Source of the DNA: Vulcanisaeta souniana JCM 11219
Lineage (GTDB): Archaea; Thermoproteota; Thermoprotei; Thermoproteales; Thermocladiaceae
DNA length: 64,000 nucleotides
Reading direction: 5' to 3'
Assembly: GCF_026000775.1 (NCBI RefSeq)
Contig: NZ_AP026830.1
Location: 1,573,056 to 1,637,055, forward strand
The notes under the pieces were generated by a model. That model was not told where the DNA came from. It ran no database searches and worked only from the letters and a program-made list of their open reading frames with translations. Positions 41,050 through 64,000 of the stretch are shown in pieces (position 1 is the first letter of the stretch; each line of letters opens with the position of its first letter). Made by a program: the position numbers and the translations under genes.

Positions 41050-41218
41050 CTCCGTCCTTATCAACTGTATCAACTGTGGGTTATTGCTTACAATTAAGTA
41101 AATAAGTCTTAACTTATACAACCTCAATTATTTCACAAACACAACATACATAATGCATGCCTGAAGTACCAATTCCTTAGCTCCTTGTGTCTCGAGGATT
41201 AAAATACGTGTTTTCTGA

Positions 41219-41401
41219 TTAATACCCCCGGAGCAAGTCCTCAGTCACACGCCTCTTACCGCTCCTGATCATACTGATGAGGTTAAGCGTGACGCCCAAG
41301 TCACGGGCCTTAACACCCTTCTGCTCCATAACATAATTAATAATCCTAACCCTAACATCATTAGAAATCCCACTAAGTTCATAAAGCTGGCAATCAACCA
41401 T
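41219..41401 (-). CDS. Small HTH protein (60 residues)
   Basis: The protein reads as a compact Xre-like helix-turn-helix: 'SNDVRVRIINYVMEQKGVKARDLGVTLNLISMIRSGKRRVTEDLLRGY'; helices 2 and 3 ('KARDLGV', 'LNLISMIRSGKR') match the pattern of a repressor-type DNA-binding domain. ATG 41401 is preceded by a TATA (around 41431-41441 on minus) with a nine-base leader. Similar short HTH proteins, and similar N termini of archaeal integrases, are known, so it could be a stand-alone regulator or the remaining start of a larger protein. Confidence 0.55.
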   Translation of the reverse strand: MVDCQLYELSGISNDVRVRIINYVMEQKGVKARDLGVTLNLISMIRSGKRRVTEDLLRGY

Positions 41402-41511: not shown

Positions 41512-41588
<77 letters not shown>

Positions 41589-52707: not shown

Positions 52708-54033
52708 GTGGAGAAGCTGTATAAACTTAGTGGGTTCGCTAAGTTGAAGAAGTTGTCAAAGACCCTTAAGAGAACAGTAGTGTTAGAGGGATGGACTAAC
52801 AGGACTGGTAGACAAGCTCTCGGAGAAATTACTGAAGCATATAGAAGTATGCTACAGGAAATGCTTGACTACGCCGTGGAGAATGGGGCCTCACAATCAA
52901 CACTGCACAGAGTCTTCTACCACAGGTTTCGTGAACAATACCCATGGCTACCCACTAGGGTCATCAAGAGTTGCTATAGGGATGCTGTTAGGAGGGCTAG
53001 GTCGTTCAGGAGGTTGAGGAGGAAGGGGTTGGCTAAAACAGATAAGCCGAGTGTTAGGAGTGTGACGATTACGTACTCTGACTCGCAGGACTGGAGATTA
53101 GTGAATGGGACTATTGAGTTGAGGACGCATAGGGGTTGGGTTAAGATTCACCTGAGGTACCATAGGCAGTTAATTAGGTGCCTCTACGGTGGCTGGAGAC
53201 TCTCCAGTGAATTAAAACTAAGGTTAGCCGGTAAGAGGGTTATCATTTACCTAACCTTCACTAGGGATTTCACTGTTTCCTACGATCCTGGAAATGTTGT
53301 TGCTGTGGATATCAATGAGGATAACGTGACAGTCGCCCTATTCAAGGAGGGTAGGCTAGTTGACGTGTATAGGATCGAGACTAACCTTGGGAGGATCGTG
53401 ATAGCCTACGCCGAGAGGAGAAGAAGGATAACCAGGGGAAAGTCCACTAAGGTTAGGGAGGTTGTGAAGGCCCTCAGGAAACTCAGGGAAGAGGAGAGGA
53501 AGAACGACATAGTCTATAAGACCGCCAGGATAATTGAGGAGATTGCGAAGGAGAATAACGCGGTCGTAGTTGTGGGCAACGTCCGCAGGGGCAAGAGGAA
53601 GCTTGTTGATAGAGCCGAAAAGAGCACTATAAGACACAGAATCCACCAGTGGGGTGTGGCTACCTTAGTGAGGGTGCTTAGTGAGAAGCCAATACACGTT
53701 GTTGAGGTTTCTGAGGCATACACATCAACTATAGACCCATTTACAGGTAAACCCATCCTTAATTACACTCCCTCGATGATCCGCATTGCGGTGAGGGGGA
53801 GTAGGAAGGTGAGGGTTATCAAGGTGAGGCTTAGGCTGGCTAGGGTTGGCAATGGGTTAATCCTCGATAGGGACGTGGTTGGAGCAATAAACATTGGGCT
53901 AAGGTACCTAACCTCAGGTGGGAGCCCAATGGCGTTGGGCTCGACAGGGCCCCATGAGGTGCGGGTGAAGCTAATGAACCCGCACAGAGGGCCAACCCCA
54001 CTCACGGTACTAAAACTAACGAAAAGTAACTAA
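52708..54033 (+). CDS. tnpB: TnpB-like protein lacking the zinc ribbon and RuvC-II acid
   Basis: The 441-residue protein has the TnpB fold in order: helical N-terminal domain, RuvC-I 'VAVDINEDNV' with Asp201, a bridge region, 'NAVVVVGNVRRGKRKLV' where RuvC-II should have Glu or Asp but reads GNV (290-292), then 'VSEAYTSTIDPFTGKPI' where the zinc-ribbon cysteines should follow, and RuvC-III 'LDRDVVGAINIG' with Asp389. It ends with 'GSTGPHEVRVKLMNPHRGPTPL', the usual C terminus of archaeal IS605 OrfB proteins. TATA-like atttaaatac (52662-52671) and a GTG start at 52708. Full-length, possibly nuclease-dead; tnpA is absent. Confidence 0.85.
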   Translation: MEKLYKLSGFAKLKKLSKTLKRTVVLEGWTNRTGRQALGEITEAYRSMLQEMLDYAVENGASQSTLHRVFYHRFREQYPWLPTRVIKSCYRDAVRRARSFRRLRRKGLAKTDKPSVRSVTITYSDSQDWRLVNGTIELRTHRGWVKIHLRYHRQLIRCLYGGWRLSSELKLRLAGKRVIIYLTFTRDFTVSYDPGNVVAVDINEDNVTVALFKEGRLVDVYRIETNLGRIVIAYAERRRRITRGKSTKVREVVKALRKLREEERKNDIVYKTARIIEEIAKENNAVVVVGNVRRGKRKLVDRAEKSTIRHRIHQWGVATLVRVLSEKPIHVVEVSEAYTSTIDPFTGKPILNYTPSMIRIAVRGSRKVRVIKVRLRLARVGNGLILDRDVVGAINIGLRYLTSGGSPMALGSTGPHEVRVKLMNPHRGPTPLTVLKLTKSN

Positions 54034-59487: not shown

Positions 59488-59965
59488 CCCACAAAAACCA
59501 TGAATAGTCCCAGACCTCAGGCTTGTTACCTTAACAGGCCGAGCCATTAATGGGCTTAACTCGCCTGTCCACGCCGTAGCCTCTCTAGTCGGTGGCTTGG
59601 GACGGTGGGGTCGGGAATGCACTAAATGTGCCTAAGAGGGGCTTTTAGTAATTAACCGCCTCAGGGAAAAGCTGGCGTCACCGCTAAGTCAATGCAGGGT
59701 AATACGTGGGATAGAGGATCGCCCTAAACTGGGAATTACCATCACGTTTGCACGCTTATACCTAGAATACTTAGCCATATTAACTACACTAGTTATGCAG
59801 CCAGATGCATCAATAAATGTAAAGATTTATCGTCAGGGCATCTAAATAATTTGTAAAAGTATTTCTTGTTATTCATCTTAGGTGACTCATCGTGCTCGGT
59901 GCTCTAAGTACGTACGTCAGCTACGAAATCCACCTAATTAAGCCCCACAGGCAGGACCCCGTGAC
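59488..59965. other. Spacer with a possible structured element
   Basis: No gene is visible in these 478 bases. Between about 59517 and 59625 a G+C-richer part contains ttaacaggccgagccatta and cttaactcgcctgtccacg which partly complement each other, and a run gtcggtggcttgggacggtgg. Its pattern reminds me of the structured right ends of TnpB elements, but I cannot show it. The last 200 bases are A+T-rich and lead to the operon at 59966. Confidence 0.3.
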
Positions 59966-60568
59966 ATGACCAACGTATTCGACATAGTGTGTATTTCGGA
60001 ATCGATCAAATCATTAATTAATGAGGCAGCGGCTTTTCGAGGGTTAGTGGATTATGAGTATAGCGCCGGGCTGAGCAATAAAGCTAGGCATGATCAGTTG
60101 TTGGCCTTGTCAAATTTGTATATTGATATTGTACAAATTTATGTACGGAATAAGGAACCGCTTAAGCTTGGGCTCATCAGGAATGGTAGCCACTACATTG
60201 CTAAGCCGTTAAGGGGTGACGATGTAGTGTACTCGTTCTTAGAAATATTACGTAATAGGCGCGTCATGGTGGTAATCGTTGACTTGAGTAATGAGCTTCT
60301 CGATATGTTCATAGCCAGGGTCACGGCGTACCGATGGTGGCCCGCAATCTACATACCAAAGCGGTTAAGCAGACTCGCAGAGAATTACTGGGTCCTCAAT
60401 GAGCCGTTGATGGTCTTCCTGGGCACGCCAAATAAGAGGTGCATGGATGAGGTGATTACGTATGAGAAGGCCATTGAGCTTGAGTGGAGAATGGTCATGT
60501 ACAACGTGACTGGCCGCAACGAATTCCCAAGATTCGACATCACGCATGTGATACCTGGTGACCCGTGA
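59966..60568 (+). CDS. Hypothetical protein, first gene of the replication-like operon
   Basis: This 200-residue protein from ATG 59966 belongs to no family I know. It is soluble, with helical parts and the strand pair 'RRVMVVIVDLSNELLDMFIARVTAYRWWPAIYIPKRL' in the middle, and ends 'FPRFDITHVIPGDP'. The stop (TGA 60566-60568) overlaps the next gene's ATG (TGATG), so translation is coupled. No clear TATA-ATG spacing is seen; A+T-rich text lies about 80-130 bases upstream. Because the following genes encode a helicase-like ATPase and a primase-like protein, a role in replication initiation or origin binding is possible. Confidence 0.5.
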   Translation: MTNVFDIVCISESIKSLINEAAAFRGLVDYEYSAGLSNKARHDQLLALSNLYIDIVQIYVRNKEPLKLGLIRNGSHYIAKPLRGDDVVYSFLEILRNRRVMVVIVDLSNELLDMFIARVTAYRWWPAIYIPKRLSRLAENYWVLNEPLMVFLGTPNKRCMDEVITYEKAIELEWRMVMYNVTGRNEFPRFDITHVIPGDP

Positions 60569-61023
60569 TGCAGCCCCATGTCCGCGGGTTCGATGATGAG
60601 CTGTGCATAGTCTTTGGGGACTGTGGGAGGAGTGGGTGGAGCCTCTACAATGAGTTATTGAATGAGTATGAGAGCCGAGCACCCATTATACTGGGGGTTG
60701 ATAGTTATGCCACGATAACCCACGTCTGGCTGCTGGTTAGGTCGGTCAGTGGTTTCGGATTGAGCCTTGTCTTTGTCTCTGACTATGACGTGAGGCGAAG
60801 CCCTGAGAAGTACATACACAGGGCATTACATGACTTCGCCCTGGCCCACTGCTCCCTGGCAATCCTGGGGCAGCCGCATTGCGGGGTGTTTCTGGACTTC
60901 TTTGATAGTGACGATATGAGGAGGCTGTACGAGGATGTTGGTGATTACGTGTTCAAGTACCTGATGCGTCACATTAGGGAAGCACTCGTGCAGTACCTCG
61001 GCTCGGGGATTGGGAGGGGGTGA
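60568..61023 (+). CDS. Hypothetical protein, second gene of the replication-like operon
   Basis: The 151-residue protein begins at ATG 60568 inside the stop of the first gene and ends inside the start of the third. It shows 'FDDELCIVFGDCGRSGWSLYNELLNE', hydrophobic strands 'APIILGVDSYATITHVWLLVR' and 'GLSLVFVSDYDVRRSP', and a helical tail 'YEDVGDYVFKYLMRHIREAL'. An alpha/beta fold is likely. No family is recognised. Gene order and overlaps imply that it is produced with the ATPase in fixed ratio, so it could be a partner or loader. Confidence 0.5.
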   Translation: MQPHVRGFDDELCIVFGDCGRSGWSLYNELLNEYESRAPIILGVDSYATITHVWLLVRSVSGFGLSLVFVSDYDVRRSPEKYIHRALHDFALAHCSLAILGQPHCGVFLDFFDSDDMRRLYEDVGDYVFKYLMRHIREALVQYLGSGIGRG

Positions 61024-61025
61024 GC

Positions 61026-63575
61026 ATGTCATCGCTGGCCACTGGCAATGAGGGGAGGAATATTGAGGAGGCCGCTGGTAGTGCCGAGGAGGCCTTCAAT
61101 GCCCTGTGGCCTAACACCCTGAGTGAGGAGGAGCAGAGGTTCATTGTGGCGCTCGTGGATGAGTACATGAGTAGGCGCGGTGTTAATGATGCCGTGAGGG
61201 GTTACGTAATAGGCGAGTTCATTAACGCCTACGTGCTCCTGAGGACTCTCGACGCTAAGCGGGCGCCCGGCGTCAAGTTCTCGGTTTTCGTTGAGGTTGC
61301 CAGGGCGATGAATGCGCTGTGGAGCTTCGTTGATAGGCAGGGGCATGAGTCCTACGCCGTAGTGAGGGGTGAGGATGACGTGCTGTACCTGGTCGAGTTT
61401 AGGGAGAGGACGTTCACTATCGAGGGTATCGTCAACCCAGTTACAGAGGACTGCGCAGTCAGTGGTGTCTCGAAGAGGGGGAAGAGGTATTACACGAGGC
61501 TTCGCTGCCTCGTTGTTGACGCGGTCTATAGGCTGAATAACCTGGTCGACGTAATGCGCGTTAATGATACGGTGCTCCACGCCAACTTCTACGTTGCCAG
61601 GGTTAGGAATGGGGTTAATACCGAGGTCTACGTATTCGACCACTCAAGCACTGCATTCACCGAGGGCCTGCTAAGCATTGGCGTTGCCGCTAGGCGCGAC
61701 GTCATTGATAAGCTACGCACGGCGCTGGCGGCGAGGAGCAGCGCGGTGTTTCACTTCACGACGGGCTTCATATACGACCCTGCGAGGAACGCGATATACT
61801 GGGAGCCGGGCTACGCGGGTATTGAGGTTAGGCAGGCGGGTAGGGACGAGGTCGTCACCGAGCTTATGAGGTTCAGGGGGGTACTCGACACCGTAAAGGG
61901 CGGCTTCCGTGACCCGGCAACGCCGATGCAGGTAATCGGCCTTTACTACGCGTACTCGTTTTACCAGGCGTATAGGTACTTGCTCGGGAATGCCGACACC
62001 CCGGTACCGCTCATCTTTGGGTACCCGAACCTGAATAAGACGACGGTACTAAATGCGTTGAGGAGGACGCTAAACATTGGGGATGCACCAATCACCCTCT
62101 CCACGGAGGGCGCCGCCATCACTCTATCGCCCCAGCGTCTTATCGCAGCCATGACCGAGACCACGCTACCGCTGATCCTCGATGACGTAACGATTAACGA
62201 CAGGGTGGTCGAATTAATACTGCAGCTGGGCGCGGCGGGTGGTGACTCGGTTTCTCTACCGCGCGCTAGGCAGTACGGGCCTGGCCTTAGGGAGAGGCTC
62301 CCCATCGTGAGGATGGGCTTCTTCATATTGAATGCGGACTCCGTGAATGATGTTTATGGGGGCGTGATTGACGTGCTCAGGGAGAGGGGCAGGGGGAGGG
62401 TAGGTAAGGCGGTCCTCATGGCGATTCTGGAGAGGAGGTTGCTCCCACTTGACTTTAATAGGGCGGGGTCCACAAGCATTGAGCTGAGGAGGTCCCTCCA
62501 GAGCGTGGAGTTGCCCAACATGTTGCTGGTCCTAAACCACGTGGTCGCTAACTACCCGGGCGTGTTGATTAGGTTGATGAGGCAGGAGGTGGATGAGGTT
62601 AAGGACAAGTACCTCAACTTCCTGTGGTTCACCTACCTATTCTGGAGGTTCATTCATGGGGAGTTCGGTGTGGACCTTAGCGACCTTGTCGACGCAATGA
62701 GGAGGTTGGCTGAGGAGCGTGAGGAGGCCGGTAGGTATAGGGTGATTGTTATGGGGGAGGAGATTGAGGAGGGCATAAGGAGGGAGGATGCGGAGAGGGT
62801 TAGGGCCACATTCGAGACCTGGATCGAAGACTTAAACATACAGGCTGAGACGGCTAGCGAGAGGCTCACGGCGCTGGTCAGGAATGCCGATAGGGCGAGG
62901 GTTGTATTCGCCCAGCCAAGGTGGAGTAATGAGTCCATTGAGAATGCGAGTCGCATTGTGAATTTGATTTGTGAGAATGAGGATGCGATGAGCGCGGACG
63001 GCACGATTGACCCCAATAATTGTAATAGGAGGAGCACAATATTCGATGATGAATTCATTAAGGTCGTGAATGAACTGCTCAGGCAGAATAAGACCGTCGT
63101 TTACTTGCTCGACCATGCATTCGCAAGTAGGAGCAACAGGAACGGCATTGGTGTACCAAGGACACTAATGGGTAGGCAAAGAACGCGGGTGGGTAATGAC
63201 CACGGCTTCAGACTCACACTTGATGAGTTACTTTCAATCCTATTTAACATTGACGTAGAACATGAACAAGGTTCGGAAAACCCCGGGGATAAATTGAATA
63301 CCGCAAACACCTACACACCTACCAGTACAGGGGCTATAGAGGGGAGTAGTTCTTCCGGGGGTGAAGAGGGGGTAAGACTTTCAATTCCCAATGAGCAGAC
63401 GAATAAGGTAGAGACTACCAATATAGGCGCGGGGCAGGTAGGTGAAGTAGGTACAGCGGTATCTAGTTCTACCCCGGGGTCTTCTGAAAAGGTTTCAGAT
63501 AAAATAGGGGTTGAAGGTAGTGGCGAGAAACTGAGAGTGAAGGTGAGGTGGGGTGATATCAAGGGCAGGCTCTAG
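61026..63575 (+). CDS. Large ATPase, candidate SF3-like/D5-type replicative helicase
   Basis: The 849-residue protein (ATG 61026; GTG 61020 also possible) has a 300-residue N-terminal part of unknown type, then 'PVPLIFGYPNLNKTTVLNALRR', where residues 332-340 GYPNLNKTT occupy the P-loop but with Asn for the second Gly; Walker B 'LPLILDDVTIND' (about 381-392) and a sensor-like 'RMGFFILNADSVNDVYG'. The layout resembles phage/plasmid D5 or DUF927-type helicases. A helical region follows, and the last ~100 residues are Ser/Gly/Thr-rich and probably disordered. It is followed four bases later by a primase-like gene. Function is inferred; G+C is visibly higher than in the flanking genome. Confidence 0.65.
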   Translation: MSSLATGNEGRNIEEAAGSAEEAFNALWPNTLSEEEQRFIVALVDEYMSRRGVNDAVRGYVIGEFINAYVLLRTLDAKRAPGVKFSVFVEVARAMNALWSFVDRQGHESYAVVRGEDDVLYLVEFRERTFTIEGIVNPVTEDCAVSGVSKRGKRYYTRLRCLVVDAVYRLNNLVDVMRVNDTVLHANFYVARVRNGVNTEVYVFDHSSTAFTEGLLSIGVAARRDVIDKLRTALAARSSAVFHFTTGFIYDPARNAIYWEPGYAGIEVRQAGRDEVVTELMRFRGVLDTVKGGFRDPATPMQVIGLYYAYSFYQAYRYLLGNADTPVPLIFGYPNLNKTTVLNALRRTLNIGDAPITLSTEGAAITLSPQRLIAAMTETTLPLILDDVTINDRVVELILQLGAAGGDSVSLPRARQYGPGLRERLPIVRMGFFILNADSVNDVYGGVIDVLRERGRGRVGKAVLMAILERRLLPLDFNRAGSTSIELRRSLQSVELPNMLLVLNHVVANYPGVLIRLMRQEVDEVKDKYLNFLWFTYLFWRFIHGEFGVDLSDLVDAMRRLAEEREEAGRYRVIVMGEEIEEGIRREDAERVRATFETWIEDLNIQAETASERLTALVRNADRARVVFAQPRWSNESIENASRIVNLICENEDAMSADGTIDPNNCNRRSTIFDDEFIKVVNELLRQNKTVVYLLDHAFASRSNRNGIGVPRTLMGRQRTRVGNDHGFRLTLDELLSILFNIDVEHEQGSENPGDKLNTANTYTPTSTGAIEGSSSSGGEEGVRLSIPNEQTNKVETTNIGAGQVGEVGTAVSSSTPGSSEKVSDKIGVEGSGEKLRVKVRWGDIKGRL

Positions 63576-63579
63576 GGGA

Positions 63580-64000
63580 GTGAATATTGACGTGGCCAGG
63601 GAGTTCCTGGACTCACTGACCTGGGGCTTTAGGCGCTATAACTACTGGGCCGGCAATACGTGGTTGACTGGTAAATTGCCAGTGAGTAAGGATGATGCGC
63701 TCAAGCTAATCGGGAGTGGCGACATAATCGGTGTTTGGCAGTGCTACTCCTTCAATGTTGATGAGGACTGCGTGTTTAGGGACGCCGTGGTGTTCGAGGT
63801 AGACATTTACGAGTGCGAGGACGTGGACGACAAGCTTGAGTGTGTCGTTGAGTGGGCCAGGTCAAGGGCCAGCGAGCTTAGGCCAATACTCAATTTAATG
63901 CCGGTTATTTGGTGGAATGGGAATAAGTCCCTCTATTTCATTAACTACCTCCTTGAGCCTGTTGTTGCCGAGGCACGGTTAAGGAAGGCTTGGGAGAGGA
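63580..64000 (+). CDS. Primase-like protein (AEP superfamily), truncated by window end
   Basis: From GTG 63580, four bases after the ATPase stop and with an AGGGGAG ribosome-binding site just before it, 140 codons are visible. The segment 'FRDAVVFEVDIYECEDVDD' (Glu73-x-Asp75) and 'VIWWNGNKSLYFINYLLEP' resemble the catalytic E/DxD strand and the 'nGnrslHf' turn of archaeo-eukaryotic primases such as PriS or plasmid primase-polymerases. The second catalytic Asp and zinc site would lie beyond the window. Context with a helicase-like ATPase supports a plasmid- or virus-type replication module. The call is tentative. Confidence 0.5.
   Translation, partial: MNIDVAREFLDSLTWGFRRYNYWAGNTWLTGKLPVSKDDALKLIGSGDIIGVWQCYSFNVDEDCVFRDAVVFEVDIYECEDVDDKLECVVEWARSRASELRPILNLMPVIWWNGNKSLYFINYLLEPVVAEARLRKAWER

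Follow-up and report, generated by a model that had tools for sequence, protein, structure and literature searches.

Five adjoining genes, encoding two small proteins (orf1 and orf2), a large ATPase, a primase and a family B DNA polymerase (PolB), were found at and past the right end of the analysed stretch of the Vulcanisaeta souniana chromosome. They probably form one operon whose products would replicate, in the Thermoproteales, a family of plasmids or viruses that integrate at tRNA genes; the copy described here is most readily understood as a module that has been stranded, its genes still intact. A homologous copy in the same genome, located in an element that is bounded by tRNA-Gly and encodes an integrase, was the reason for assigning the module to the replication of integrating elements. 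Throughout this report, the window is the whole 64,000-bp stretch that was analysed (G000:C1:1573056-1637055 of a closed genome of 2,432,148 bp), and gene positions are in window numbering unless marked as genome positions.

Organization of the module

The five consecutive ORFs are intact, are encoded on the same strand and have overlapping or abutting ends (Table 1). An earlier note on this DNA had reported four tightly overlapping genes, including an 849-residue ATPase, and both frames and junctions were found as stated; PolB, lying past the window end, was out of view of that note. The stop of orf1 overlaps the start of orf2 (TGATG), orf2 and the ATPase overlap at GTGAGCATG, the ATPase starting either at GTG 61020 or at ATG 61026, a four-base gap (GGGA) separates the ATPase from the GTG start of the primase at 63580, and primase and PolB overlap at CCATGAGG. 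Such an arrangement is more than chance, since it combines five intact, overlapping or abutting ORFs of the same strand, recognizable domains in two of their products and purifying selection on PolB. The higher G+C content that had been ascribed to the module was observed for orf2 (0.54), the ATPase (0.55) and the primase (0.52), the 1-kb windows of the whole stretch averaging 0.459 +/- 0.039, but not for orf1, whose value of 0.46 is not raised over this background. The element-specific spacer upstream of orf1 would hold the promoter of the operon and possibly a putative origin; no direct or inverted repeats of at least 10 bp were found inside it.

Table 1. Features of the module and of its borders (window numbering unless marked genome)
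Feature	Position	Strand	Description
Upstream spacer	59505..59965		Element-specific; from the end of host-repeat homology to orf1
Inverted 12-bp repeat TTGTTACCTTAA	59523..59534		Inverted copy at 66903-66914, 130 bp past the PolB stop
orf1	59966..60568	+	200 aa; possibly a tandem AbrB-like DNA-binding protein
orf2	60568..61023	+	151 aa; start ATG 60568; without relative
Large ATPase	61026..63575	+	849 aa counted from ATG; putative divergent SF3-like helicase
PriS-PriL-type primase (candidate)	63580..64000 in the window, running on to 64572	+	330 aa in the chromosome
Family B DNA polymerase (PolB)	64569-66773 (genome 1637624-1639828)	+	734 aa; fifth gene, wholly past the window end

Assignment of the encoded proteins

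PolB was the most readily assigned of the five products. Exonuclease motifs Exo I-III and polymerase motifs A, B and C are all intact (LDVEV, YNGWNFD, YLSLDV, YDFSAMYPS, KILVNSAYG and YGDTDS), and the Pfam DNA_pol_B match (E 2.9e-6) is above the cutoff. When compared by motif only, its ExoII motif YNGWN bears the GWN signature, which is characteristic of the PolII-like clade (PMC7544198). When PolBs of the order were placed in a tree, that of the module grouped with those of other elements and with short PolBs of the Pyrobaculum/Thermoproteus type, apart from the cellular PolBs, with a support of 1.00. The two genomic copies of PolB differ with a dN of 0.10 and a dS of 0.60 (dN/dS ~0.17), which indicates that the polymerase is under purifying selection. 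Genomes of the Pyrobaculum/Thermoproteus type also contain element-type PolBs near a macro-domain gene (L037 9956-12184, L039 8683-10335, L040 9087-10823). Most of these are 554-598 aa long and have lost the exonuclease motifs while keeping YGDTDS; such exonuclease-less forms with YGDTDS are unlike PolB2 as given in PMC7544198.

The primase-like nature claimed for the last protein of the window was borne out by its C-terminal third, which corresponds to the PriL Fe-S domain in both Pfam (PF04104, E about 1.6e-9 to 1.7e-9, above the gathering cutoff) and NCBIfam (1.7e-15). Alignment of the Fe-S cysteines with two element relatives showed three of them to be invariant in all three proteins and the fourth to lie within a few columns. 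In the N-terminal part, motif I reads E-V-D and a motif-II histidine is not obvious; primase activity is uncertain because E-x-D replaces D-x-D and because such a histidine is not evident. Primase motifs are recognizable in the N-terminus of a relative from locus L057 (LigD_Prim-Pol 4.8e-4, DNA_primase_S 0.02), and the family profile could be weakly aligned (E 0.05), over motifs II-III, with PDB 7nqf, which we take to be a CRISPR-associated primase-polymerase. The protein stops straight after the Fe-S domain, and no PriCT-1 linker or C-terminal winged helix was found in it. Judged from these sequence features, it would be a compact one-chain fusion, in which a clear PriL Fe-S domain follows an N-terminus that can tentatively be called PriS-like (AEP-like).

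The ATPase displays Walker A (GYPNLNKTT) and Walker B (LPLILDD) motifs, and it matched nothing in the family libraries or among the PDB sequences; its AlphaFold model (pLDDT 33) was uninformative. It could be aligned with a helicase-like family of neighbouring elements (L098-L101 and L038) over Walker A, Walker B, A(R/S)(Q/R)YGxG and motif C, and the spacing from the P-loop to the FxxPxW motif is about equal in the ATPase and in L038. The hhalign score against this SF3-like family was 45.8, compared with at most 26.2 among 60 shuffled sequences and 17.1 for the reversed one. The SF3-type helicase put forward by the earlier note is therefore upheld as far as this similarity exceeds all shuffled controls, but not with respect to the canonical Walker A GxxxxGK[ST], in which Asn replaces the Gly before Lys, whereas the relatives have GK. 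Two of these relatives are fusions, L099 with a Pfam Prim-Pol domain (5.3e-8) and L038 with a primase-polymerase domain visible by motif only. No Pfam or PHROG helicase assignment was found for L098-L101 and, because the family matches no PDB sequence, its SF3 label rests on motifs and on the primase fusion. The alignments suggest that the ATPase and the SF3-like helicases of neighbouring elements are related but have diverged very far; the helicase activity of the ATPase is putative. Members of this family in Vulcanisaeta-type genomes were located at L098 7177-9429 (~1.245 Mb of the genome studied here), L099 7355-9832, L100 1152-2897 and L101 8407-10503, one of them having its primase-polymerase domain at the N-terminus.

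Both small proteins had been described as orphans; orf2 remains one, but orf1 has relatives in two further elements of this genome. Over 74 aa, orf1 is 38% identical (E 6.6e-11) to a 121-aa protein of an element-like region (L098:12396-12761), and its tail shares 43% identity (37 aa) with the ORF that immediately precedes the ATPase of a second element, element B (see below), both proteins ending with IPGDP. An AbrB/MazE-type DNA binder (L098:10345-10662, PF04014 7.6e-6) is among the genes upstream of related helicases, and orf1 is possibly a tandem version of such a protein; its AlphaFold model (pLDDT 40) was uninformative. For orf2, no family was obtained at a meaningful score in Pfam, PHROGs or NCBIfam, and no homologue was present in any of the loci fetched for comparison.

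Related elements and distribution

A second copy of primase and PolB (copy B, the window copy being copy A) is located at 2089-2092 kb of the same genome. It belongs to element B (genome 2085608-2101169, 15.6 kb), which has a 24-bp repeat of the tRNA-Gly 3' end at its two borders and whose tyrosine integrase gene (PF00589 5.2e-11; PHROG integrase 8e-35) starts next to the intact tRNA-Gly. Element B encodes a 322-aa protein and, by inspection, several membrane- or secretion-like proteins, and it repeats the order orf1-tail ORF, ATPase, primase and PolB. Its primase gene is split by a frame disruption, the N-terminus of its PolB is damaged, and no similarity could be detected between its ATPase and the window ATPase at the same position.

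In two Thermoproteaceae relatives (G033 and G040), related genes occur in segments of 10.8 kb and 9.7 kb, between 61-bp tRNA-Ser and 45-bp tRNA-Gln repeats, respectively, and both elements carry HTH-tyrosine integrases. A tRNA gene, a direct att repeat and an integrase were all present for copy B and for loci L038 and L057. Since copy B and the Thermoproteaceae relatives lie between tRNA repeats beside an integrase, the module was interpreted as the replication module of a tRNA-integrating element family. The integrase family itself was found in 16 of the 25 genomes of the host family. In the 10.8-kb tRNA-Ser element, the PolB (L038 5769-8000) has its N-terminus in another frame, owing to a frameshift or an assembly error.

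Conservation of the four window genes at the same place in all relatives, which according to the earlier note would speak against a mobile origin, was not observed: none of the 44 other genomes of the order that were searched contains the module as a unit, the ATPase was found in one genome out of 45, and PolB at more than 80% identity in this genome only. The genome-contig scan returned a single match, the Thermoproteaceae contig of G033. Searches of IMG/VR viral contigs with PolB, primase, ATPase and a PolB alignment yielded no relative, and INPHARED phages and PLSDB plasmids yielded only distant PolBs (Leptospira phage, Pol II-like genes) and nothing for the primase; the SF3-like relative had no match among phages. 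No convincing CRISPR-spacer-like match to the module DNA was detected in the 45 genomes, and no recognizable module gene was found among the ORFs of the 16.9-kb second replicon of G031 (L104).

Divergence between copies A and B is uneven. Over PolB residues 294-734, dS is 0.2-0.6, whereas it is near saturation (about 1.4 or more) for the primase and for PolB before residue 294. The abrupt fall at residue ~294 (genome 1637624-1639828 versus 2090582-2092442) suggests recombination between mobile elements. In this module family, PolB thus appears to have recombined between copies and the helicase at the same position to have been replaced, which bears on the swapping of primases, helicases and polymerases between archaeal mobile elements.

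Borders and genomic context of the window copy

Up to about 59505, the left flank consists of repeated host DNA, for which matches of 90-94% exist elsewhere in the same genome and in that of a congener. Host-repeat homology stops at 59489-59504 on the left and restarts near 67091 on the right, which leaves ~7.6 kb of element DNA. The genes past PolB, mostly on the opposite strand, have by inspection the appearance of host cell-surface glycan genes. An integrase and an att site at a tRNA, for which the earlier note recommended searching the DNA past the window, were not found for this copy: neither ~35 kb of DNA on the right nor ~17 kb on the left was found to contain a tRNA, the module has no adjoining integrase, and its edges lack direct repeats of at least 10 bp. 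The proposal of an integrated plasmid or virus of the Thermoproteales was accordingly substantiated by the homologous modules of tRNA-bounded, integrase-encoding elements, but not by an integrase, tRNA or att site of its own, and it is by indirect evidence that the window copy itself is assigned to the integrated elements.

A relic of the same integrase family (41139-41344, minus strand; residues 1-38 at 89%, 388-407 at 70%, middle deleted) adjoins tRNA-Lys (41512-41588). Its position just past the tRNA-Lys 3' end is the trace of an earlier integration stretching leftward. This tRNA and relic, ~18 kb to the left, were considered as the att site of the module and rejected, as the corresponding element would run to their left and not towards the module. 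A 441-aa ORF at 52708-54033 has, by inspection only, the look of an IS200/IS605-type TnpB.

Interpretation and alternatives

As a replication module, the five genes would be co-transcribed. The product of orf1, perhaps assisted by that of orf2, would bind the origin or regulate the operon, the SF3-like ATPase would unwind origin and fork, the one-chain primase would make primers, and these would be extended by the element's own exonuclease-proficient PolB. The element would thereby replicate without the primase, the MCM or the polymerases of its host. The window copy would have lost its integrase and att sites, or would never have brought them.

The missing integrase and att sites would also suit a dead or dying fossil, left over from an ancient integration, with frames that are open but unused. 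Copy B of the same genome is already broken. The carbamoyltransferase gene that flanks the window copy has, in congener G017, the decayed tail of a PolB (residues 672-732) ~90 bp away from it; the insertion is therefore old, or else the site is one that is targeted repeatedly, and the locus may have held this element for long. However, all five ORFs are intact, including frames of 849 and 734 aa, and the PolB copies differ mostly at synonymous sites and have recombined over residues 294-734; a fossil was consequently judged rather unlikely. At the other extreme, the module might be a ~7-kb replicon with a near-complete private replisome (an origin binder, an SF3-like helicase with a degenerate P-loop, a one-chain PriS-PriL primase with altered motifs, and PolB) and a previously undescribed initiation by orf1 and orf2, which would still be able to replicate and to be moved in trans by related integrases. 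We consider this doubtful, and less likely still than a fossil; the new initiation machinery proposed by the earlier note is conjectural.

Recruitment of the module from a mobile element as a host operon for DNA repair or defence appears very unlikely. Most of the Pyrobaculum-type genomes searched contain related exonuclease-less PolBs (554-598 aa), beside the macro-domain gene where inspected, which suggests that such PolBs can be domesticated, but the module occurs in one genome only, its primase-helicase-polymerase set fits replication, and none of the adjoining genes was seen to be a known partner in defence or repair. Hardly any weight was given to a compact transposon-like element moved by an unrecognized protein, which would be analogous to casposons, known self-synthesizing transposons that encode PolB (PMC4046053). 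The 12-bp inverted repeat of Table 1 is close to both edges, its left copy being near the end of host homology, yet ~2% of shuffled flank pairs contain one as long, before correction for flank choice, no target-site duplication was seen at it, and none of the five proteins matched a Cas1 or transposase domain.

Comparison with known replication systems

The preferred reading, a stranded replication module of a tRNA-integrating family, leads to comparisons with several described systems. PolpTN2 of the Thermococcus plasmid pTN2 similarly combines PriS-like and PriL-like Fe-S domains in one chain, in a small archaeal mobile element with an adjoining helicase gene (PMC3973330, PMC5862659). PolpTN2 exceeds 900 aa, however, while the 330 aa of the present protein leave no room for PriCT-1 and C-terminal winged-helix domains; the partner helicase is SF1 in pTN2 and SF3-like here, and PolB is encoded next door here, whereas pTN2 is thought to use the PolB of its host. 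On these grounds, the window primase would not be a member of the PolpTN2-like family. Primase and SF3-type helicase also make up the replication core of integrating archaeal elements in pRN1-type fusions and thaumarchaeal AEP-SF3 proteins (PMC6563490). Those are fusions, as in relatives L099 and L038, whereas the window element has separate helicase and primase genes, a PriL domain in the primase, and PolB in addition. Integrated archaeal elements with a PolB of their own include casposons, ICE NitEve-E6 and the cryptic element ThaMY3-E2 (PMC6563490); the present PolB differs from theirs in belonging to a Thermoproteales clade with the PolII-like ExoII signature YNGWN and, unlike in casposons, no Cas1 is present. 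The window module may be filed as a variant among the known replication modules of archaeal integrated elements. Its compact PriS-PriL primase, SF3-like ATPase and dedicated PolB would give a small, thermostable and testable model replisome.

The one-chain primase of Nanoarchaeum equitans is of similarly small size. Primases with PriS and PriL in one chain have been described from Nanoarchaeum, pTN2-like plasmids and a Bacillus provirus (PMC3973330). The Nanoarchaeum enzyme resembles the one studied here in its arrangement, but it is the cellular replicative primase of a symbiont, whereas the present primase comes from a mobile element.
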